64,000 nucleotides of DNA, from contig CAUJNA010003320.1 in assembly GCA_963377175.1 (NCBI GenBank), positions 93,501 to 157,500 on the forward strand, read 5' to 3'. The position numbers and the translations under genes are program-made. Numbering within the stretch: position 1 is the stretch's first letter; each line of letters begins with the position of its first letter. The DNA is from Effrenium voratum. Taxonomy: Eukaryota > Sar > Dinophyceae > Suessiales > Symbiodiniaceae. Under the pieces are notes generated by a model. It was not told the origin of the DNA. It ran no database searches and saw only the letters and a program-made list of their open reading frames with translations. This document shows, piece after piece, positions 40,190 to 59,600 of this stretch.

Positions 40190-43100
40190 TCTTATTTGCG
40201 TCCCTTTGGAATTGTCCCCTTGCCCCCTTCCCCTCTGAGATTTTTGCCCCCCTTTCTTTGTTGAGATCCATTCCCCCTTTCCGCCCTAAGGCCTTTTCTC
40301 CCTCTGATGTTTCCCTTTTCCTCCCTAAGATGTTTTCCCCCCTCTCCCTGTTGAGATCCTTTCCCCCCTTTCCCCCCTAAGGCCTTTTCCCCCCTGAGAT
40401 CTTCTCCCTTTTCCTCCCTTTCCCCCACTTCCCCCCCTACGGCCTTTTCCTCCCTGGGATCTTTTTCCTTTCCTCCCTGAGATCTTTCCCCCCCTTTCCC
40501 TGTTGAGATCCTTTCCCCCCTTTCCCCCCTACGGCCTTTCCCCCCGCTGAGATCTTCTCCCTATTCCTCCTTAAGGGAAAGGGGGGAAAAGATCTTTGGG
40601 AGGAAAATGGAAATCTTTCTCGGGGGGAACAGGCCCTAAGGGGCAATGGGGGGACAGGATCTCAAACGGGAAAGGGGGAAAAAGACTTTGGGAAGAGAAG
40701 GGTGGAGATCTTGGGGGGAAAAGGCCTTAGGGGGGAAACGGGGGAAAGGATCTTAAGCGGGAAAGGGGGGAAAAGATCTTAGGGAGGCAAAGGGAGACAA
40801 ACTCAGGGAAAAGGACTTAGGGAGGAAAGGGGGGGAAAGATCTTTGGGAGGAAAAGGGAGAAGAACTGAGGGTGGGAAAAGGCCTTAGAAGGAAAAGGGG
40901 GGAAATAAATGATCTCAACAGGGAGCTGGGGGGGGGGGGGAAGATCTTAGGGAGGAAAGGCAGAAGATCTGGGGCAAAAAGGCCTTAGGGGGGAAAGGGG
41001 AGAAATGATCTCAACAGGGAAAGGGGTGGAAAAGATCTTAGGGAGGAAAGGGAGAAGATCTGGGGAAAAAAGGCCAACATGGAAAGGGGGGAAAAGATCT
41101 TCATGGGGGGAAAGGCCTTGGGAGGGAAAGGGGGGAAAGGATCTCAACAGGGAAAGGGTGGGAAAGATCTTAGGGAGGAAAGGGGGGGGAAGATCTTAGG
41201 GAGGAAAGGGAGAAGATCTGGGAGAAAAGGACTTAGGAAGGAAAGCCCAACAGGGAAAGGGGGGAAAAGATTTAGGAAGGAAAAGGGAAGCTCTCAGGGG
41301 GGGGAAAGGCCTTAGGGGGGAAAGGGGGAAAAGGATTTCAGCAGGGAAGGGGGGGGGGGGAAAGATCTTAGGAAGGAAAGGGAGAAGATCTGGGGACAAA
41401 GGCCTTAGGGGGGAAAGGGGAGAAATGATCTCAACAGGGAAGGGGTGGAAAAGATCTTAGGGAGGAAAGGGAGAAGATCTGGGGGAAAAAAGGCCAACAG
41501 GGAAAGGGGGGAAAGATCTAAGGAAGGAAAAGGGAGAAGCTCTCAGGGGGGGGAAAGGCCTGAGGGGGGAAAGGGTGGGAAGGATCTCAACAAAAAAGGG
41601 GGGAAACAATCTTAGGAAGGAAAAGGGAGAAGATCTGGAAAGGCCTTACAGGGAAGGGGGGAAAGGATCTCAACAGGGAAAGGGGGCAAAGGATCTTAAG
41701 GAGGAATAGGAAGAAGATCTCAGCGGGGGGAAAGGCCGTAGGGGGGAAAGGGGGGAAAGGATCTCAACAGGGAAAGGGGGGGAAAGATCTCAGTGAGGAA
41801 AGGGAGAAGGTCCCAGGCAGGGAAAAGGCCTTAGGGGGGAAAGGGGGAAAGGATCTCAACAGGGAAAGGGGGCAAAGGATCTTAGGGAGGAAAAGGGAGA
41901 AGATCTGAAAAGGCCTTAGGGGGAAAAGGGGGAAAGGAGCTCAACAGGGAAAGGTGGGAGAAGATCCTAGGGAGGAAAAGGGAGAAGATCTCGGGGGGAA
42001 AGGGGGAAAGGATCTCAACCAAGGGAAAAGATCTTGGGGAGGACAAGGGAGAAGATCTCAGGGGGGGAAAGGCCTTAGGGGGGAAAGGGGGGAAAGGATC
42101 TCAACAGGGAAAGCAAGCAAAGGATCTTAGGGAGGAAAAGGGAGAAGACCTTGGGGGGGAAAACGCCTTAGGGGGGAAAGGGCGGGAAAGGATCTCAACA
42201 AGGAAAGGTGGGAAAAGATCCTAGGAAGGAAAAGGGGGAAGATCGCGGGGGGAAAAAAGGCCTTAGGGGGGAAAGGAGGGAAAGGATCTCAACAGGGAGA
42301 GGGGGGAAAACATCGTAGGGAGGAAAAGGGAAAACTCAGAGGCAGAAATAGGGTGGAAAGGAGGAATGGATCTCAACAGGGAAAAATGGCAAAAGATCTT
42401 AGGGAGGAAAAGGGAGAAGATCTCAGGGGGGGAAAGGCCTTAGGGGGGAAAGGGGGGAAATGATCTGAGCAGGGAAAGGGGGGGAAAGATCTTAGGGAGG
42501 AAAGGGAGAAGATCTGGGGGCAAAGGCCTTAGGGGGGAAAGGGGAGAAATGATCTCAACAGGGAAAGGGGTGGAAAAGATCTCAGGGAGGAAAGGGAGAA
42601 GATCTGGGGGAAAAAAGGCCAACAGGGACAGGGGGGAAAGACCTACGGAAGGAGAAGCTCTCAGGGGGGGAAAGGCCTCAGGGGGGAAAGGGTGGGAAGG
42701 ATCTCAACAGGGAAAGGGGGGAAACAATCTTAGGAAGGAAAGGGGGGGGGGAAGATCTTAGGGAGGAAAGGGAGAAGATCTGGGAGAAAAGGACTTAGGG
42801 GGGAAAGCCCAACAGGGAAAGGGGGGAAAAGATCTTAGGAAGGAAAAGGGAGAAGCTCTCAGGGGGGGGAAAGGCCTTGGGAGGGAAAGGGGGGAAAGGA
42901 TCTCAACAGGGAAAGGGTGGGAAAGATCTTAGGGAGGAAAGGGGGGGGGAAGATCTTAGGGAGGAAAGGGAGAAGATTTGGGAGAAAAGGACTTAGGGGG
43001 GAAAGCCCAACAGGGGGAAAGGGGGAAAAATCTTAGGGAGGAAAGGGAGAAGATCTGGGGACAAAGGCCTTAGAGGGGGAAGGGGAGAAATGATCTCAAC

Positions 43101-44710
43101 AGGGAAGGGGTGGAAAAGATCTTAGGGAGGAAAGGGAGAAGATCTGGGGGAAAAAAGGCCAACAGGGAAAGGGGGGAAAGATCTAAGGAAGGAAAAGGGA
43201 GAAGCTCTCAGGGGGGAAAGGCCTTAGGCGGGAAAGGGTGGGAAGGATCTCAACAGGGAAAGGGGGGAAACAATCTTAGGAAGGAAAAGGGAAAAGATCT
43301 GGAAAGGCCTTAAAGGGAAGAAGGGAAAGGATCTCAACGGGGAAAGGAGGCAAAGGATCTTAAGGAGGAATAGGGAGAAGATCTCAGCGGGGGGAAAGGC
43401 CTTAGGAAGGAAAGGAGGGAAAGGATCTCAACAGGGAAAGGGGGGGAAAGATCTCAGTGAGGAAAGGGAGAAGATCCCAGGCAGGGAAAAGGCCTTAGGG
43501 GGAAAGGGGGAAAGGATCTCAACAGGGAAAGGGGGCAAAGGATCTTCGGGAGGAAAAGGGAGAAGATCTGAAAAGGCCTTGGCAAAAAAGGGGGAAAGGA
43601 GCTCAACAGGGAAAGGTGGGAGAGGATCCTAGGGAGGAAAAGGGAGAAGATCTTGGGGGGAAAGGGGGAAAGGATCTCAACCAAGGGAAAAGATCTTGGG
43701 GAGGACAAGGGGAAGATCTCAGGGGGGGAAAGGCCTTAGGGGGGAAAGAGGGGAAAGGACCTCAACAGGGAAAGGGGGCAAAGGATCTTAGGGAGGAAAA
43801 GGGAGAAGATCTTGGGGGGGAAAACGCCTTAGGGGGGAAAGGGCGGGAAAGGATCTCAACAAGGCAAGGGGGGGAAAGATCTTAGGAAGGAAAAGGGGGA
43901 AGATCGCGGGGGGAAAAAAGGCCTTACAAGGGAAGGAGGGAAAGGATCTCAACAGGGAGAGGGGGGAAAACATCGTAGGGAGGAAAAGGGAAAAGCTCAG
44001 AGGGAGAAAGGGCCTTAGGGGGGAAAGGGGGAATGGATCTCAACAGGGAAAGGTGGCAAGAGGAAAAGGGAGAAGATCTCAGGGGGGGAAAGGCCTTAGG
44101 GGGGAAAGGGGGGAAAGGATCTGAGCAGGGAAAGGGGGGGAAAGATCTTAGGGAGGAAAGGGGGAAGATCTGGGGGCAATGGCCGTAGAGGGGAAAGGGG
44201 AGAAAGGATCTCAACAGGGAAAGGGGTGGAAAAGATCTTAGGGAGGAAAGGGAGAAGATCTGAGAGAAAAAGGCCAACAGGGAAAGGGGGGAAAGATCTA
44301 AGGAAGGAAAGGAAAAGGGAGAAGCTCTCAGGGGGGGGGAAAGGCCTGAGGGGGGAAAGGGTGGGAAGGATCTCAACAAGGAAAGGCGGGAAACAATCTT
44401 AGGAAGGAAAAGGGAGAAGATCTGGAGAGGCCTTAAAGGGAAGGGGGGAAAGGATCTCAACACCCTTAAGGCATTTTTTCCTCAGATCTTCTCCCTTTCC
44501 TCCCTGAGATCTTTCCCGTTTGAGATCCTGTCCCCCCATTGCCCCTTAGGGCCTGTTCCCCCCAAGAAAGATTTCCATTTTCCTCCCAAAGATCTTTTCC
44601 CCCCTTTCCCCCTTAAGGCATTTTTTCCCCAGATCTTCTCCCTTTCCTCCCTGAGATCTTTCCCCCCCTTTCGCTGTTGAGATCCTTTCCCCTTTCCCCC
44701 CTTCATTTCC
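40190..44710. repeat. 4.5-kb polypurine/polypyrimidine satellite with inverted ends
   Basis: Units of about 92 bases contain, in order, GGCCTTAGGGGGGAAAG, GGATCTCAACAGGGAAAG, AGATCTTAGGGAGGAAA and GGGAGAAGATCT. The plus strand is pyrimidine-rich at 40190-40570, purine-rich at 40571-44460 and pyrimidine-rich again to about 44700. A block at 40571-40670 recurs inverted at 44517-44613. Inside, a segment of about 1.66 kb is repeated in tandem (for example 42160 and 43826, or 41420 and 43085). All open frames here are repeat translation. Confidence 0.95.
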
Positions 44711-45104
44711 TTCACCAGCATGGGCAACATCCCCAGCATCACTTGCATCATCCGCATCCTTGGCAGGCGCTGATGCGGATGATGCAGGTGATGCTGGCGA
44801 TGTGCCACTGGAACTGCTAAGGATGCGAAAGCGCACCCGGGGGGAATCGAACACCCCAATGTTTTTGACAAACTGAGCCCGCACAATGAACAGATTTAGT
44901 GAAGCGTCTTCGAATCACCGCGTGGTACGTGGACCCCCCCCCCCCCCAATAGTCTGAAATGCTGCCCCTGGGGAGGGGTTAGGGGAGGGGTAACAGGTAA
45001 AGAGCATTTCTTATGTCCAACACGCCGTCTGTTGTCGGCGGATATATGTAGTAGGATATGGACTTCAGCAATTGAAGTGCACTGTCCAGGCCTCCTTTCC
45101 CCAG
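44711..45104. other. Right flank of the satellite
   Basis: Contains CATC/GATG-rich sequence (44725-44800) and a C run at 44934-44947. On the minus strand a frame from 44884 reads MRAQFVKNIGVFDSPRVRF then alanine/serine/aspartate repeats before running into the satellite; it might be a fossil 5' exon but has no support. Confidence 0.3.
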
Positions 45105-49904: not shown

Positions 49905-50948
49905 GGCTGATGCTGGTGATGCTGGTGATGCTGGTGATGCTGGTGGGGTCGGGCCGAAATGTCTTAGAGAAGCACAGGGCAACAGGAGGAAGACTCATTC
50001 GTCCAATCATCGACTCTTGGGGCTAGCCTGGGGTTAGCGCTGGGTGGAGCCTTTACCAAGTCTTGTCCTGACCGTTCCCAGTGTCCATTGCAGAGGCTTC
50101 TAAAAATCAACACCAGAAGGCCAAGCTGTTTGGCCAACACCCAAACTATTGGCCAAATTGTTTGGCCTTTTCGGGGCCCCTCTATTGGTTTGCTTTCAAG
50201 CGGAATGCGGGGACACCACCCATGTTGGCGTTCCATATCAACTCCAGGGGTTGCTTGAGGGTGAATCTCCTGGCGAGGGTGCCCTCGTGGTTTCATGGAA
50301 ATAGGACACCATAGGAAAACGTCGACCTTGTTCGGTTCCACAGCAAGTGCTTCGACAAAGGAGGGCGAAGCTGCCTTCACAGCGCTGCTTCCCCGTTGTG
50401 CTGAGAGCCTTCTGGCAGCGCTCACGGAGGCCCAAAGGGCTATGGCACCACTTCAGGACACAGGAGACTTCATTGGTAGGGCTCTTCGTATCAAAATTAT
50501 TCACTCATCCCCATTTGTACTTAGCGGCTTCTCCCCCGCACGCAGAGCGAGTCGCTTGTAAAAGCTAACATATACCAATATATTTTAGTGCTGAAGTAGT
50601 TAGAAATTATGAAGGAACAAATAGAGGAAATGATACTTGAAAGTCCATTACTATGATAGCCAGAGTTTAATAGTTTAATAGTCCAGTCCTGGTTCTGTCG
50701 TGGTTATAGTTGAGAGATCCTTGATTCTTGTCTTAGCTTGGTGCTAGTCCTAGTTGAGATATGTTTGGTTCAGTCTTAGTTTGGTCCTAATCCCACTTAG
50801 TGAGACTTGAGAGATCTGTGGTTCTAGTGCTAGATGGGTAAAACATGAACTGGAGAGGAAGAAGGAAGAAGGTAGGTTCCTTTGGGGAGGAGCGCGGATA
50901 TATAGTTGACATATACATGTACATATTCATGTGCATATAATGCATATG
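49905..50948. other. Left flank of the retroelement
   Basis: A TGATGCTGG tandem repeat (49910-49945) is followed by mixed sequence. A patch at 50340-50480 is open in two frames and may be an exon. The last 100 bases become AT-rich with CATATA/ATGCAT motifs, the presumed integration target. Confidence 0.45.
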
Positions 50949-51026
50949 TGTACCACCTCCAAGGTCCCTAATCCCATTGAAGGCGGTTGGGATATGCCCG
51001 CAATTTACTCTCAAGCTTTTCCTGTT
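50949..51026 (+). repeat. Left split direct repeat A1
   Basis: Begins TGTACCACCTCCAAGG and ends GCTTTTCCTGTT. All 78 bases are identical to A2 at 56262-56339, and similarity continues about four bases with one mismatch. Confidence 0.95.
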
Positions 51027-51039
51027 CTCCTTTTGGTGA

Positions 51040-51450
51040 TTGATGTGGTGGAGCCATCTGGGTTGGGTCGTCAGCCTGATCGCAGTGTTGGACTGGCGTC
51101 GTACCTCAACATCTCAGCTGGCAGTTGCAGAGGCTGAGCTTTTGCGAGTGGAAGTGGCGCAACTTCGGTATCTGGTTCAACAGCTGGAAGGTAGTTGTTC
51201 AGGCTGTGACTGGGAACTTTTCTGGTGGCGGTGGTTCTCCCGTGTGCTGGCTGTGGCTTTGCTTGGTCTAGTCATAGCGGTGCTATTCCCAATGTTTAGG
51301 ACCCCAAAGCTGACACTTGAGCTACCTGTGGCGACGACTACCCTGACATCGCGAACTGGGCCAAAGCGACCCTCAGACCTGAAGCGGCGACTCAATGGCT
51401 CTGACTCTGGACATTCCGGAAGTGCAAGTGCTAGTGTCATATCCGCATGA
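51040..51450 (+). CDS. Retroelement ORF1, membrane/coiled-coil protein
   Basis: 136 codons starting 14 bases after A1. Residues 27-51 form a heptad-like coil (EAELLRVEVAQLRYLVQQLE), residues 67-86 a strongly hydrophobic helix (VLAVALLGLVIAVLF), and the tail is Ser/Thr-rich. Its end overlaps the next ORF by 56 bases in another frame. No nucleic-acid-binding motif is visible. It may be a structural accessory protein or a fortuitous frame; its position just inside A1 favours a real ORF. Confidence 0.5.
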   Translation: MMWWSHLGWVVSLIAVLDWRRTSTSQLAVAEAELLRVEVAQLRYLVQQLEGSCSGCDWELFWWRWFSRVLAVALLGLVIAVLFPMFRTPKLTLELPVATTTLTSRTGPKRPSDLKRRLNGSDSGHSGSASASVISA

Positions 51451-52166
51451 CCCCAATGGTTTGACATGGCACCATAGGATCTTGCTTCACCGAGTGGATG
51501 CTGGAGACTGGATCACGTTGACACCCGACCTCGAATTCCAACGCCATAACCTGGCCACTCAGGCTCACCGAATTCTGGACAGATGCATGCCCTTTCCCCA
51601 GGACATCGAGAACGAGGTCTATGCCCATGACCCAATTTCCCGCGCTTCGGTTCTGAACTACAAGCGACAGTCTCAGGTCATGGCAGCAATTCTGGGAGAG
51701 GGAGCCGTTGAGCTGGATTCGGTGGGCTGGGTTGTTGCTGATCCTTCCCCATCCCAATTTTGGGGAGGTGATTGATGCCCAGCTCATGGCTACGGAAGCG
51801 ACAGGTGTTGGCTTCACCTCAGAAGGGTTGGTTCTTCGCGAGAATGAGCTCTTTGTTGAGAAGATCTCCATGCGGGATCTGGATGATTGGAGGGCCAAGA
51901 AAGGCAAGGAGCTTGGGGACCTCCGTTTGTTGGGGGACCACCGTGACAATGCTGGCAAGCGGCGGTTGGAACTTAGCGCAGCGGTGGCCCTCATGCACAA
52001 TGCCGAGGACAAGGAGTTCCCGATTGCCGGAACCCGATCTTCGAAGGAGTTGCGCGAGAGTGTGGCCCTTGGCCCTGGCAACGTCCTCAGCTACCATGCC
52101 GAGTGGTTGCGGTTGTCAGGGGTTTCAGGTCGAAGCTCCTCGGCCCATGGCCGATGCATGGAGTGA
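51395..52166 (+). CDS. Retroelement gag-like ORF, frameshifted
   Basis: Starts MALTLDIPEVQVLVSYPHDP with LTWHHRILLHRV soon after. Around 51755-51765 the reading shifts +1, and the second frame continues through LGDHRDNAGKRRLELSAAVA and GNVLSYHAEWLRLSGVS to a stop at 52166. I recall closely similar sequences as abundant predicted proteins in Symbiodinium genomes, usually continuing into a basic tail and then reverse transcriptase; this is from memory. Here the region after LSGVS is deleted. It presumably packages the RNA. Confidence 0.65.
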
Positions 52167-52357
52167 TTTCGGAATTCGGTTCCGATCAGATGATCGGAAG
52201 CATGGGGGCCCTTTTCCTTTGCCCCGTTTGACCTGCACAGCACAGCGGAGGCGGGTGGATCATTCCTTCAAGACGTTGAATGACCTCGCTGCAGTTCCTT
52301 TTCAGACAGCTAATTCACACCTTCCACTGACTTCCGTGCAAGAATGGATCATGGAGG

Positions 52358-53464
52358 ATGTATTCACAGGAGGCTGCTCATTTAGTTGCTACGGACTTGA
52401 GCAAGATCAAGATTTTGCACCGGCGCTTGGGTGTCAAGCCTGCGGAAGACCTTCTGCCACCTGAGGCTAGCATCTACTTGAAGAACTACCAGTACTTCAT
52501 CGAGAAGTCTCCTGCCGAGCTGGAGGCGGATGTCAACGCTTCTGATCCAGTGGAGCCTTACTGGGATCCTGGTCTGCGATCAGATTGGGGCCGCAGATTT
52601 GAGCTTTTCAGGGCTTTGGATTCTTCAGGCCTTTTGACCTTCAGACGGCGGCGAAAAGGGAGGGTGGCATTCTTCACAGTTGCCAAGAAGGATGGAATGC
52701 AGCGACTGATTGTGGATGCTCGTGATGCGAATGCCAAGCAAAAGAGACCACCGTGTACGCAACTTAGCACTCCTTCGAGCTTCATGGACTTGGATTTCGC
52801 CGACTTCGTGGATGGGGTTGGTGACGTCATGGAGCTTCCGGCTTTTGCCATGTGCGCAGGTGTCGTGGGGGATTGCTTTTAAATTTCTCGGTTGGTCCTG
52901 GGCCCTTTTCTTGGCTAACGAGGTGGTGGTTCACGGCAGGCGACCGTTTTCTTCGCGATAAGGTTCCTTGCCCGGATGTTCGTTCTGGCCCAGTGGTTGG
53001 CGTCTACGTGGACAACGTCAATGTGGTTGTGGCCAGCTCTGATCAAGTTGATGCCACAATGAATGGCATCGCGCAGCGCTTTGCAGCACTTGGCATCCCC
53101 TTTGAGATCACGGACCGAGTCATTGGGGCTTCAGTTCAACTTTGGCTCCAGGGTCTTCATAAGGAATAAGACTTCGAGAGCATCGCGGCTATACTTGTCC
53201 ACCAAGGCCATCCAAAAGAGGAAGCGGGTGTCGGGCGATTTGCTTCGAGTGTGGCTCGGGCACACCAACTTCTTTTTGCAGTTGAACCGCCTGGGGCTTT
53301 CTTGCCTATCTGCAGTTTACAAGTTTTCAGCTATGCACCTGGGGCGGCGGGCTCCTATGTGGCCTAACATTCGACGGGAGCTGCGACAGGTTATGGGCTT
53401 GGTGCTTCTGGTGGAGCATGAGCTTACAGCTCCTAGATCGGCTCGGCTTACGGATTTGCCCTGA
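52358..53464 (+). pseudogene. Reverse transcriptase domain, broken
   Basis: Three frames carry consecutive RT blocks. The first (to 52882) has FFTVAKKDGMQRLIVDARDA, an RT fingers/palm motif. The second (about 52880-52960) has FLGWSWALFLANEVV. The third (about 52965-53169) has GPVVGVYVDNVNVV, the catalytic box with YVDN in place of YVDD, then a shifted frame to 53464 with thumb-like DLLRVWLGHTNFF. About 100 or more residues between the first palm block and YVDN are missing, including the first catalytic Asp region. At least three frameshifts and an internal deletion make it inactive. Confidence 0.75.
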
Positions 53465-53491
53465 TGTCTACCAAGGCCAGTTCTGCAGAGA

Positions 53492-54180
53492 TTGGCAAGG
53501 AGGTCAGGATTCGAGAGAAGTGGCGGTTGGTTGGACGAACGCGCTGCCATCCTTGCAGATGATGAGGAGGCGATGAGTGACCTTCATTCCTATGGCCATT
53601 CTGCTCAGCCTTCGCTGGGTGTTATCACTGGCTATGGACGTGAATTGCGGCAGCGGATGGAATCTTCAGAGCCCAGAAAGATGCGAGCCAAAAAGCAGCA
53701 GTTATTTGGGAGTGCAAAGTCAAGACCAAGTACGCTCATGGAGGCGGTCTCTCGCCCTCCAGTCCGTGATGTGTGGCATGATCGCAGCCGATGGACACTG
53801 ATTTCGTCAGGCCGTTGGAAGCTTGCAAAAGAGCACATCAATGGCAAGGAGGGTCGAGTCTTGTTGATGGGGTTGCGAAGGTGGGCACGCAGTGTTCCCA
53901 ATATGGGCAAGATGGTGTTTCTTTGGGTAACCTGGTTACGGTGCTTAGCTATGAGAAGGGTCGGTCATCATCCATGCTGTTGAATAACCTTTGTAGACGA
54001 GCATGTGGATACGTTTTTGGATGCAGATTTATATGGCGAATCCGGCATGTACGCACGCAATACAATGTTGCAGGCGGCCCATCCCGGGCCTTCGATCCTG
54101 GGAGAAAGCGTGAGACTTGGGCATCTGGTGATAGTGGAATCTTGGGCAGACATGTCGCTGCGCACTCCTATGAGCAAGGA
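53492..54180 (+). pseudogene. RNase H-like region, broken
   Basis: One frame reads WTLISSGRWKLAKEHINGKE (an RNase H-type Glu segment). A shifted frame then reads VTVLSYEKGRSSSMLLN and IWRIRHVRTQYNVAGGPSR, the H-x-x-x-N-x-A-x-x-PSR signature closing RNase H in DIRS-like pol. The Asp expected before NLVTVLS is missing (GNL). Interpretation rests on motif order after RT. Confidence 0.6.
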
Positions 54181-54223
54181 TCCACTCCCTCAACACCCTT
54201 GGTTTCGCCTGTGAAACTGTTCG

Positions 54224-54839
54224 GAACTCTTTGCTGGAGCAGGGGGTTTTTCAGCGGCACTTCAACGTAAAGGGCTTCGCACTTTGACAGCATTGGATTT
54301 GCATCATGGACCCCATCATGACCTTTCACGAGTCTCCACAGCAACTCATTCTACAACTGGTCTCTATGTCACTTATTTGGTTTTTGCATGGAGCCGCGCT
54401 CGACATGCGATCAAGAATGTGGCTCGGGCTAGAGGTCGGGAGCTTCTGGGGGTACAGCTAGCAGCTTTTCTGCAGTGTTGATACGCATATGCTTGGAGAA
54501 GAATATTGCGTTTACACTGGAAAATCCCTGGGGGTCCCTGCTCTGGAAGTTTCATCCCATTGCCGAGCTCCTCAAAGATCCTCGTTGTTGTCTAGTCGTT
54601 TTTGATGCTTGCATGTATGGGTCACCGTATAGGAAGAGCGCAGCAATCCTCACCAACAGACCTGAGCTTTTAGCGCTGGCCAGACGTTGCAATGGACAGC
54701 ATCGACACGAACAGCCTGGAAAGTGAAGCGCGGCGACAAGTGGGTCTACGAGAACAAGACCACCATGGCCGGAGCCTACTCAAAGGCCTTGGTGGAGGCG
54801 TGGACCAGCAAGATAGTCTCGCTGGCCCAGGATTCCTTC
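54224..54839 (+). pseudogene. DNA methyltransferase-like domain, broken
   Basis: A frame from 54224 begins ELFAGAGGFSAALQRKGL and then TALDLHHGP, the AdoMet-binding motif I and following acidic strand of C5-type DNA methyltransferases. After a frameshift near 54475 it continues RICLEKNIAFTLENPWGSLL, with an ENP motif, then VVFDACMYGSPYRKSAAILT, and after another shift a tail with GDKWVYENKTTMAGAYS. The Pro-Cys catalytic motif expected between these is not visible; the region is shortened to FAWSRAR. The call comes from motif I and ENP. DIRS-1 and PAT carry a Dam-like methyltransferase here, while cytosine methyltransferases have been reported in dinoflagellate retroelements. It presumably methylated the element's DNA. 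Confidence 0.65.
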
Positions 54840-54886
54840 TGAGAAAATGGTGAGGACAATGGCTGGTTCTCACAGAAGGAGACAAG

Positions 54887-56029
54887 ATGTGGATGCGGAA
54901 GGGGTCAAGAACACCGACTCCTTCAAGCCCATCGCTGCCGAGGATGCCAGATCCTATATCAAGCAGGGGGTTGTCTTCGGCCAGCACACTAAGGAGGAAG
55001 CCCGTCGACTTGGCGGTGGGAACTTCAAAGGTGCATACCCTCAAGCCTCAAAAGCCGAAGAAGCCACCTCTGGTTGACCTTCAGAATCATCCTTTGCGGG
55101 CCTTTGTCCGCATGCGAGCCTCCAGGGTTACACAGAAGACTCTGGATCAGTATCATCGACAGATAGCGGGGTTTCATACATGGGCGAGGCGGCAGAAGCT
55201 GAGAGTGAACAAGGGCAACCTGGACGCTATGGTTGTCAAGTACATGACCTACATGCATGAGCGGGAAGGGGCTGAGCCTAGAGTTGGGTCCTATCTTATC
55301 TATGGTCTGCAGCTGCTGCAATGTGATATCCCAAAGGCTCTCTTTTTGCCGAAGGAAACTTTGGCCAGTTGGCGGAAGTTGAAGCCTGGGTCTATGCAGC
55401 TGCCAGTTCCGGAGGAGCTGATCTTCGATGTGGCGGTACAGCTGTCTCAGTCAAGGTTGGACTTCATGTGCCTTCTCCTGCTGCAGTTTGATGGTTGCCT
55501 TAGACCTAGTGAAGCCACCGGGCTGACATGGGACAATGTGGTGGAACCTGTGGGGCGCCGGTATCCTTGTTGGGCATTGGTGCTTTTTCCTGCGGAGATG
55601 CAATCTCGCTCGAAAACTGGCAAGGCGGATGATTCGATCCTTCTGGGGGATCTTCCAGAACGGAAATGGATGACGCAAGTGATGAACTACTTGCACAAGC
55701 GCACAGAGCATCGCCTGTTTCCGAACATCAGCTTAGCTCAGTATGAGCGGATTTTGCATAACACATGTGGGCTGCTTGAGTACTCGTCTCCGGTGGTCCT
55801 CCCTCACATAGTCCGACACAGTAGTGCTAGCAACGATGCTTGTCACCGTCGACGAGATCTACGGGCCATTCAAAAGCGGGGCAGGTGGGCAGCCAAGAGC
55901 TCTGTCAACAGGTATGAACAGCATGGTCTTCTACAACGAGCTTGGAAGTTTGTACCTGCGCGCCGGAAGAGCCAAGTCGAAAAGGAAAAGCAAAGACTGG
56001 TATCGGTCATCAATACCCGACTGAAGTAG
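54887..56029 (+). CDS. Tyrosine recombinase (integrase) of the retroelement
   Basis: 380 codons, uninterrupted. A SAM-like N-terminal domain (TLDQYHRQIAGFHTW, residues 85-99) is followed by the catalytic domain. Arg206 lies in GCLRPSEATGL, with Lys243 or Lys246 as the probable beta-strand lysine, His307 and Arg310 in PHIVRHSSAS, Trp334 in the usual His/Trp site and nucleophile Tyr343 in VNRYEQHG. The complete R-K-HxxR-H/W-Y set is present. The enzyme would join the circular DNA intermediate to the target at a short core without target duplication. The first 60 or so residues are proline-rich, and an overlapping frame from 54847 also looks protein-like, so the true N-terminus may be frameshifted. 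The stop is 41 bases before B1. Confidence 0.92.
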   Translation: MWMRKGSRTPTPSSPSLPRMPDPISSRGLSSASTLRRKPVDLAVGTSKVHTLKPQKPKKPPLVDLQNHPLRAFVRMRASRVTQKTLDQYHRQIAGFHTWARRQKLRVNKGNLDAMVVKYMTYMHEREGAEPRVGSYLIYGLQLLQCDIPKALFLPKETLASWRKLKPGSMQLPVPEELIFDVAVQLSQSRLDFMCLLLLQFDGCLRPSEATGLTWDNVVEPVGRRYPCWALVLFPAEMQSRSKTGKADDSILLGDLPERKWMTQVMNYLHKRTEHRLFPNISLAQYERILHNTCGLLEYSSPVVLPHIVRHSSASNDACHRRRDLRAIQKRGRWAAKSSVNRYEQHGLLQRAWKFVPARRKSQVEKEKQRLVSVINTRLK

Positions 56030-56070
56030 CGGTTTCTACCAGAGCCTGGATTGCATATCGGAATGGGTTG

Positions 56071-56265
56071 TGGTGCTGCATTTCATTTGAATTCCTTCAT
56101 TTCGGCATGATGATGGCTTCAGAAATTGCCATCGTCAAGTGCGCCCTTTTTAAGCGAGGTGCACTGGATGTAGCGCTGCAGCAACACATATCGAAATCAC
56201 AGCTGTCAAAAAGACAACAGCTTTTCGTGCTCTGGGCATAGGACAGTAGCATCAGTTGGATTGTA
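56071..56265 (+). repeat. Split direct repeat B1
   Basis: 195 bases from TGGTGCTGCATTTC to GGATTGTA. It differs from B2 (56374-56568) at only about two positions (AAATTGCC/AACTTGCC and CATATCG/CATTTCG). It overlaps A2 by TGTA. Confidence 0.95.
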
Positions 56266-56339
56266 CCACCTCCAAGGTCCCTAATCCCATTGAAGGCGGT
56301 TGGGATATGCCCGCAATTTACTCTCAAGCTTTTCCTGTT
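56262..56339 (+). repeat. Split direct repeat A2
   Basis: Identical to A1 over 78 bases. It directly follows B1, so the B1-A2 junction mimics the joined ends of a circular element. Confidence 0.95.
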
Positions 56340-56373
56340 TTCCCCCGTTGCCAGCCCTGGCCTTGAAAGGTTA

Positions 56374-56568
56374 TGGTGCTGCATTTCATTTGAATTCCTT
56401 CATTTCGGCATGATGATGGCTTCAGAACTTGCCATCGTCAAGTGCGCCCTTTTTAAGCGAGGTGCACTGGATGTAGCGCTGCAGCAACACATTTCGAAAT
56501 CACAGCTGTCAAAAAGACAACAGCTTTTCGTGCTCTGGGCATAGGACAGTAGCATCAGTTGGATTGTA
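56374..56568 (+). repeat. Split direct repeat B2 (right end)
   Basis: Second copy of B1, separated from A2 by about 34 bases, ending GGATTGTA at an AT microsatellite that is probably host DNA. Confidence 0.95.
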
Positions 56569-56670
56569 TATATATATGTATGTATGTACAATGCATATGT
56601 ATAGAGAGAGAGAAATATATATATATATATATGTATATATATGTGTGTATATATGTATATATGTACCTGG
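56569..56670. repeat. (TA)n/(TG) microsatellite at the element's right flank
   Basis: Alternating TA with GTAT and a GAGAGA patch. AT-rich, ATGCATATGT-containing sequence also flanks the left end, consistent with insertion inside such a tract. Confidence 0.85.
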
Positions 56671-56674
56671 CCAG

Positions 56675-59600
56675 GGCGAGGCAGCACCCGGGCCGGACTG
56701 GCTGGCGCAGTGGATCGATGAGGATGAGCCAAAGGAGCCAGAGGTGGAGGAGGCCGCACAGCCGAGCCGCCGAACCGAGGATTCAAGTGTCGAGTCAACA
56801 GGCCATGGTTCAAATCCGTTTTGGGATCCCATTTTGGAGGTTTTCGGTGAATTCACCACACTTGGGTTGCCAGGATGAAAGTTGCATAGGCTAGAAAAGG
56901 AAAGTGTGGAAAATGGGGGCAGGCCATGACTGAAGCGCTTGTGTTTTGTATTGGTGATTCGCGCTGACATGTTGAGAAAACCTTGTCCCGTCTTGCGCTT
57001 GTCTTCACAGAATGCAAGGTTTGGGAGAATCAGCCGCGGCAATCAAAGCTTGGTGATATTTGGACAATTCATCGCAGTGAGAAGCCAGGCGCCAAATGTG
57101 CCTGACCTCTACGTCTTCGGCTGCTCAGATCCAGAAGCCACTGCGCTGCTGTCTGGCCACTACAGGCCCATAAGTGAAAATCGGGAGATGTGGGTCAGCC
57201 AGGTCGTTTACTTGTTAGTGTACGCAAGGGCGTTGATTAGTCAGCCTTCCAATGCATTGCCTAAAAAAGTTTCTTCATCTCTCATTTGAAGAAGAACAGC
57301 CACTTCACATACGGGTCTCAAAAGACCTTACCCGTTTTTGTTCTTTTCTTGGAGATCCATTGCAGCTGTTACCCGCTCTTTTGCGTTTATGTCAAAACAA
57401 GGGTTCCTGAAGAGGACTAGTCTTGCCTTCATCCACAGGTGCAGCGGCTCCAACCACGGCAAACCTACCTGGGCCAAAGTGTCAGACGCGGAGGAGGCGT
57501 GTTGCCAATGCGTGCGGCGTCCCGAAGGGGAACGGGTTGGCTGGTTTCTCCATCTGCCAAAGTGACGACCTTGGATGCACAAGGACAGTTTGATTGACAT
57601 GAGACGTCTACATTGGATGTATTCAAAAAACCTTGATTGGTCGTTTTGATTGCTGGCTTCCCTTGCCACAAGAATCCTCCAATCTTGACCCACTGAGCCG
57701 CCATCACCACATGCAAATGGCCACCAGGCATGTTCAGTGCGCCTTACCATATGGAGGCTTTTTGAGGCCGTGTTTTTTGTTTATGTTTTGCTCCCTTTTG
57801 GCTTCTTGGCTTTTGGCTTCTTGGCTTTTCGGCTTCTTGCTGGTTTATGTGGCTTTTGGTGCTTTGACTTTTCACATCCTCTGCATTCCCAGTTCCTCTC
57901 CGGTAGTCCTCTGCTTTCCCGGTTCCTCTCCGGCAGGTGGCTATTTGGCTTTTGCACCCTGTAGTTGGTTTTTGGCGTTGCCGCACCCTCAGCACCACCA
58001 GTTCCTCTCCAGCAAGTGTTCTTTATATTCATGTTGATGTATGCATGCATGTAATCTATGTAATATATATATATATATGCATGATTGTATGTATGCACTT
58101 CTTCGCACATCATGGGAGGTGCCCGTTCAACCCCCCTGCTGCTTTTTTATTCTTTGCAGAAATTGACGCACCCTTTCTTCCATCGTGGCTGCCCCCAAAC
58201 CCTCCCGCTACTTTTTAGATTTTTCCACAGAAATGCACCCATATTTGATCCATCGTGCGGGGGCTGCCGCCCCCGCCAATTCCCCTGCTACTTTTCAAAA
58301 TGCATACATACATACCTACCTACCTTGCCGGACAGTAAGCAATTATCCTAAGGGTAGAGAGCCACCGCTACCTGCTGGTGATGCTGGGGGTGGTGGCGGA
58401 ACATGCGGGGAATATTGAAAGCGATGCTGGGGATGTTTCCGTGAGAAAATGCTGCAAAACACAACATTTTACAGGCCAAGACGAACAACGAAAGCAAATT
58501 CCACAAACATCCCAAAATAAATCCGCACCCCTACAATATGCCTTTTGCAAAACCAAGGCCTGAAGGGAGCATCACGTTGGTGAGGAGGGGGTTTGCGTTG
58601 ATGTGCTGACTCCTTTTTTCTTCCGGCGCAGGCAACCATGCGACCATTCTGGGTGTTCGTTGCTTTGCTGGAATCCCCAAATTCGGGAGTCAAATCTACA
58701 TTTGGCCCAATCCTGGTTGTTGTTGGGAAACATTTGTGATTTTTGCTTATTCCCGAAAGCATTGCGAAGGGTTCTTCCGGTAAAATCGCCAGCCTTATCA
58801 CACAGCTAAACTTGCACGAGCCAACTTGCACCAGCCCTATCGTATAGCTAAACTTATACGAGCCAACTTACACGAGCCAACTTGCGCGAGCCAACTTGCA
58901 CGAGCCAACTTGCACGAGCCAATTTGCCCGAGCCAACTTGCACGAGCCAACTTGCTCGAGTCAACTTGCACAGCCAACTTACACGAGCCAACTTGCACGA
59001 GCCAACTTGCACGAGCCAACTTACACGAGCCAACTTGCACGAGCCAACTTGCACGAGCCAATTTGCCCTAGCCAACTTGCATGAGCCAACTTGCACGAGC
59101 CAACTTACACGAGCCAACTTGCACGAGAACAACTTGCACGAGATGAGCCAACTTACACGAGCCAACTTACACGAGAACAACTTGCACAGCCAACTTACAC
59201 GAGCCAACTTGCACGAGCCAACTTGCTCGAGCCAACTTACACGAGCCGACTTGCACGAGCCAAATTGCCCGAGCCAACTTGCCCGAGCCAACTTGCATGA
59301 GCCAACTTGCACGAGCCAACATACACGAGCCAACTTGCACGAGAACAACTTGCACGAGATATCACGCAGCCAAATTCGCACGAGACATTTGGACACGAAA
59401 GTAATTAGTTAGTCTCTTAAGGCGGCGCGGTGGGACCGAACCCACCCTTCGAAAATGACACTCTCTGCGGGGATTTGCGTGGTCGATGTCCAAAAACTGA
59501 GGACTTTTTGTGATTTTTCTGAGGTGCCCGCGCGACCCTCTGCAGGGATTGGCGTGGTCGATGTCCAAAAACTGAAGACTTTTTACGATTTCTGAGCTGC

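Follow-up and report, generated by a model that had tools for sequence, protein, structure and literature searches.

Split direct repeats have been described for elements of the PAT, Ngaro or VIPER type (PMC4157794, PMC9210276, PMC6681497, PMC3783388, PMC8547959). In dinoflagellates, de Mendoza et al. 2018 (PMC5890265) reported SymbioDIRS-Dnmt3, with A-coding-B-A-B repeats, a pol that encodes a DNA methyltransferase (DNMT) and a reverse transcriptase (RT), a recombinase apart from it, and RTs that align poorly with Pfam. DIRS1-like elements are described as having a 3-bp circular junction and as integrating without target duplication (PMC3266345), and Cryptons carry terminal repeats of 4-6 bp (PMC3212892). 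Target choice and joining by DIRS-type elements have been inferred mainly from sequence. The present study concerns a retroelement in a 64,000-nucleotide stretch of Effrenium voratum DNA (contig CAUJNA010003320.1, hereafter the window), which is a dead member of this known dinoflagellate kind of DIRS-order retrotransposon. The kind has already been published; what is new here is a TA shared by the ends and the internal joint, one insertion without target duplication, and a run of TA on one side only. The ends of several insertions are resolved at single bases, and one insertion has paralogous empty sites for comparison; this opens the length of the core, the duplication of the target and the source of the TA run to testing. 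The family probably integrates as a circle by exchange at a TA core, with the TA run added by slippage.

Previously, the window copy had been predicted from its letters to be a retroelement whose split repeats are complete, in the order A1-ORFs-B1-A2-B2 (ORF, open reading frame), and which inserted as a circle through a TGTA crossover core. Repeat alignments, the ORFs and the sister copies bear out this layout (Table 1). A1 and A2 are identical at 78 of 78 bases, as had been stated. For B1 and B2 the near-identity held, and the figures given for it (195 bases, about two differences) change to 197 matches in 200 bases, with differences at 56070, 56125 and 56190. These repeats are far beyond chance, and A1, A2, B1 and B2 are the only A/B matches listed within the window in the genome searches. 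TGTA is indeed present at the outer left (50949-50952), at the B1/A2 overlap (56262-56265) and at the outer right (56565-56568). Under a null of blunt junctions, however, 1.0-1.5% of positions taken at random from the window show an overlap of 4 bases like that of B1 and A2, as do 6-7% of those in the nearby AT-rich flanks; therefore, the overlap alone is weak evidence for a core. In the flanks, TGTA is present 10 times in 181 bases.

The assembly containing the window (1.156 Gb, 3699 contigs) was queried with 252 left-end bases, B1 and 901 bases of the recombinase region, and at least five loci were found. Copies 1, 2 and 3 all have the A1-ORFs-B1-A2-B2 layout, although their flanks are unrelated. 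Among the matches listed, all seven of A and eight of the nine of B lie in copies 1-4. Such recurrence leaves the notion that A and B are independent repeats joined by chance as the least probable reading of all, although one B does stand alone (copy 5). Repeats found independently of the ORFs had been named beforehand as a sign against the element, and that sign has appeared in part, as this lone B.

The ends of the copies define the core more narrowly than had been proposed. The three full left ends read CATATGTG-TA-CCACC in copy 1 (GTG-TA), ACCGATA-TA-CCACC in copy 2 and CTGCAAA-TA-CCACC in copy 3, and the B1/A2 joint is GGATTG-TA-CCACC in all four copies that have it (copies 1-4). Alignment of genomic copies, suggested as a check on the ends and on a shared TGTA, thus places every full left end at TA-CCACC and leaves TA as the only bases common to these left ends and the joint. 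With GATA-TA and CAAA-TA at two of the three, TG is not shared; it is part of the end of B, and its presence in the left flank of copy 1 is chance. A TGTA core would account for the three occurrences in the window copy, but copies 2 and 3 contradict it unless both left ends were altered after insertion, which makes it very improbable. In other words, the original prediction was right on the anatomy and on the circle logic and wrong on the length of the core. In the open-access literature, we found no paper on a DIRS tyrosine recombinase with the terms circular and TGTA. On the right, copy 1 ends in GGATTG-(TA)5-TG, copy 3 in GGATTG-(TA)7-TG and copy 5 in GGATTA-(TA)5-TT. Copy 5, whose left end is GTATG-TA-GGTTATGG, begins exactly at the B boundary, with TA before it and a TA run after it.

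A ten-base match, AATGCATATG (50939-50948 and 56590-56599), was considered as a target duplication of the window copy and rejected, its second copy lying 21 bases beyond the end of B2. In simulated flanks, the last 10 flank bases found a match in 2.0% of cases and a 10-base match of any kind appeared in 36%, and we treat the pair as a low-complexity coincidence.

The empty site predicted for the window insertion was not found, the left flank at full length matching only itself in its own assembly. Copy 3 offered a substitute. The last ~65 bases of its left flank belong to a short palindromic repeat that was recovered at 40 places including copy 3's own (40 of 255 candidates scored), and nine of the others were examined as empty sites. 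None of the nine is interrupted before the second arm of the palindrome, and when the two flanks of copy 3 are joined they align with these sites arm to arm. At the filled site, AAATA precedes the element on the left and TATG follows the TA run on the right, with no duplicated target. A target duplication, which had been named as a refuting sign, is therefore absent from copy 3 when it is set against nine paralogous empty sites, as for other DIRS-order elements. The repeat itself (L034-L043; arms like CTTCCATTTGCTTAAG / CTTAAGCAAATGGAAG) has many copies in the assembly and is possibly a small DNA transposon.

The constant joint in four of four copies and the nine paralogous empty sites support the circle logic, with joined ends of the form B-core-A. 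In the scheme that we favor, a working member would be transcribed and then reverse transcribed. With the internal B1-A2 stretch as template, the complementary DNA would be closed to a circle joined as B-GGATTG-TA-CCACC-A. Exchange between this joint and a TA in the chromosome, carried out by the recombinase, would place the element with a TA on either side and without duplicating the target. Slippage, during insertion or shortly thereafter, would most likely account for the right-hand TA run.

The TA run stands at the right end of all five loci and before no left end (copy 2 has one extra TA). A comparison sample of 87 kb was assembled from the window outside the element and nine loci similar to its left flank, and is not random; in it (TA)4 or longer begins at 110 of 3035 TA sites, and it begins at all three of the loci in which the right end is intact and the core is TA. 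Furthermore, in copies 1, 2 and 4 the flank on the right continues as microsatellite-like DNA. Both the constancy of the run and these flanks would be expected if the run were the genomic target, with the recombinase placing circles in TA tracts that were already there, usually close to the left edge of the tract. Against this, TA runs do not exceed two units in the nine uninterrupted repeats and reach seven in copy 3, and the left ends carry no run. Since the nine empty sites are without a TA run, the run probably arises with the insertion. Accordingly, the right-hand part of the AT-rich tract into which the element had been proposed to insert is probably not simply the target. The left-edge position is itself no strong objection to tract targeting, because 48 of the 110 eligible sites lie at the first or second TA of their tract, and a score of four in four near that edge is improbable only at about the 4% level. 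The repeat that holds copy 3 could also have gained its TA run before insertion. For these two reasons we keep tract targeting as an unlikely but serious account.

Several observations weigh against exchange of a circle at TA followed by slippage. A one-sided TA run is unexpected from a plain circle exchange, and so is copy 5, a B without any A or ORF match in 1500 bases on each side. Copy 4 ends in GCATTG-AA-(TA)3-TT, with AA in place of TA, and copy 2 ends at GGGCATA, 25 bases before the end of B2, and then has (TA)6. The palindrome loop is variable, reading AAATAT in four of the nine empty sites and not in the other five. Differences between B1 and B2 (8/174 in copy 2 and 6/116 in copy 4) are no lower than several between-copy values. 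The best inverted recombinase-binding arms at the joint match at 7/12 positions, a score reached by 49% of shuffles. The one-sided run, the 5′-truncated copy 4 and the solitary B at a 3′ end could instead be explained by target-primed insertion resembling that of a long interspersed nuclear element, with a TA tail and the recombinase in another role. Such a route appears improbable, as full copies start exactly at TA-CCACC and share a constant B1/A2 joint, both of which circle closure predicts; copy 3 has no target duplication, and random 5′ truncation does not predict a solitary B that starts exactly at the B boundary. It is possible, if on balance doubtful, that the family inserts at bare TA, leaves a TA microsatellite of variable length on the 3′ side only, and can deposit B alone. 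If so, insertion would be more than a plain circle exchange, with slippage or priming at the TA joint as one of its steps, and TA microsatellites would be seeded by the family.

DIRS1-like elements likewise show a short junction common to the target and no target duplication, but have inverted terminal repeats and a 3-bp junction where the present family has split direct repeats and a shared TA (PMC3266345). Cryptons also use a tyrosine recombinase, and their short terminal direct repeats are taken as the recombination substrate; however, they are described as DNA transposons without RT, and their repeats are of 4-6 bp (PMC3212892). A 2-base shared core would undercut both lengths (PMC3266345, PMC3212892).

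The coding content places the element in the DIRS order. Its tyrosine recombinase matches PF00589 (E 3.6e-7), has 66 homologues and conserves the catalytic positions; the recombinase profile gave two unrelated weak matches only against solved structures. RT pieces of the window match 37 homologues, one of which (P0083) folds as an RT, and Pfam recognised none of the 12 RT homologues scanned. RT motif C reads YxDN, not YxDD (window 52936-53166; RT homologues P0067-P0103): YxDN occurs in 23 of the 24 RT homologues with a pattern-detected stretch, the other having YVDS, and 13 of the 37 are without such a stretch. As YVDN is already known from the Cer7-Cer12 elements (PMC554778), the motif is not unique. 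The region between RT and recombinase is conserved in homologues P0001, P0037 and P0077. In the window its match to PF00145 is weak (14.1 bits, E 0.031, below the cut-off of 22), pieces of two homologues gave no match, and for P0037 a methyltransferase piece had zero matches among solved structures. ORF1 has 34 invariant columns among five sequences (the window and four homologues), and its homologues have 19-residue hydropathy maxima of 2.4-2.7; its fold model is of low confidence (predicted local distance difference test 58.7), with no useful structural match. One ORF1 homologue lies on a contig of size 133,400, equal to that for pieces P0001 and P0074. The named homologues are from Symbiodinium pilosum, Cladocopium goreaui and Symbiodinium sp. 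CCMP2456. No relative was confirmed in viral_contigs, DNA pattern searches included, or in genome_contigs, and Rfam and tRNA scans of the window gave zero matches.

SymbioDIRS-Dnmt3 is matched in the dinoflagellate host, the A-coding-B-A-B layout, a divergent RT missed by Pfam, a recombinase ORF of its own and a methyltransferase-like region after RT (PMC5890265). In contrast, the weak PF00145 match does not establish a Dnmt3-like identity, and the present element has a hydrophobic ORF1, where neither 'gag' nor 'transmembrane' occurs in the main text of that paper. The split direct repeats, recurring in the sister copies, are of the PAT/Ngaro/VIPER type. Ngaro elements share the A1-ORFs-B1-A2-B2 order with internal repeats after the recombinase, and lone repeat units are known for them (AB in Cafeteria; PMC8547959, PMC9210276, PMC3783388); they are described as having no methyltransferase, unlike the weakly supported region here. 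PAT-like elements combine split direct repeats with a methyltransferase-type domain (PMC4157794), but this domain is given as DIRS type (Dam-like according to PMC3783388) and the only weak match here is to a C5 methylase.

Table 1. Features of the window copy (window positions) and copies of the family in the assembly (contig positions)
Feature	Position	Strand	Remarks
A1 repeat	50949..51026	+	shared match opens with TGTA; sister copies share only TA at 50951-50952
ORF1	51043..51450	+	135 amino acids; small hydrophobic protein with helix-rich stretch; kept in four homologues
gag-like region	51467..52103	+	two frames; N-terminal to RT in homologue P0101; 'gag-like' from position only
RT pieces	52147..53166	+	several frames; motifs A and B flank an internal deletion
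RT C-terminal part and probable RNase H	53105..53980	+	homologue P0072; RNase H by position and eye
Possible C5-methyltransferase-like region	54215..54714	+	broken frames; homologues P0077, P0037, P0001
Tyrosine recombinase ORF	54854..56029	+	391 amino acids stop to stop; catalytic residues
B1 repeat	56066..56265	+	match to B2
A2 repeat	56262..56339	+	TA of B1/A2 joint at 56264-56265
B2 repeat	56369..56568	+	outer right end
TA run (TA x5)	56567..56576		starts with outer TA; element-associated in preferred reading
Copy 1			window locus
Copy 2	C1524:317927-324177
Copy 3	C3426:169234-175631
Copy 4	C2701 about 651356-657013	-	lacks A1 and about the first 380 bases (alignment)
Copy 5	C3168:1603998-1604197 (L014:1501-1700)		solitary B repeat

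The window copy has decayed. Its pol is split across many frames, with ~14 frame changes between about 51750 and 54714 (tblastn with homologues, counted by hand). Alignments show three losses: ~450-490 bases relative to three sister copies, with a border repeat CATG; ~81 bases relative to copies 3 and 4, with a border repeat TGTAT; and ~163-167 bases relative to copies 4 and 2, with a 3-base border overlap against copy 4. The third loss takes out the part of RT that lies between motifs A and B. Deletion borders with short repeats are compatible with template switching during reverse transcription or with microhomology deletion. The arms of the same copy have 3/196 substitutions in B, 1/80 in A and zero indels. 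Had the arms gained indels at the rate of pol, 2.6 would be expected in them and zero would have a probability of 7%, given the hand-counted frame changes, which weakly hints that part of the damage may predate the last jump.

Elsewhere in the window, a long TG/CG-rich microsatellite-like array starts from 9013, and an array with 14-base spacing between copies lies at 58753-59402. A long array of related G/A-rich units at about 40204-44719 has inverted C/T-rich counterparts at both edges.
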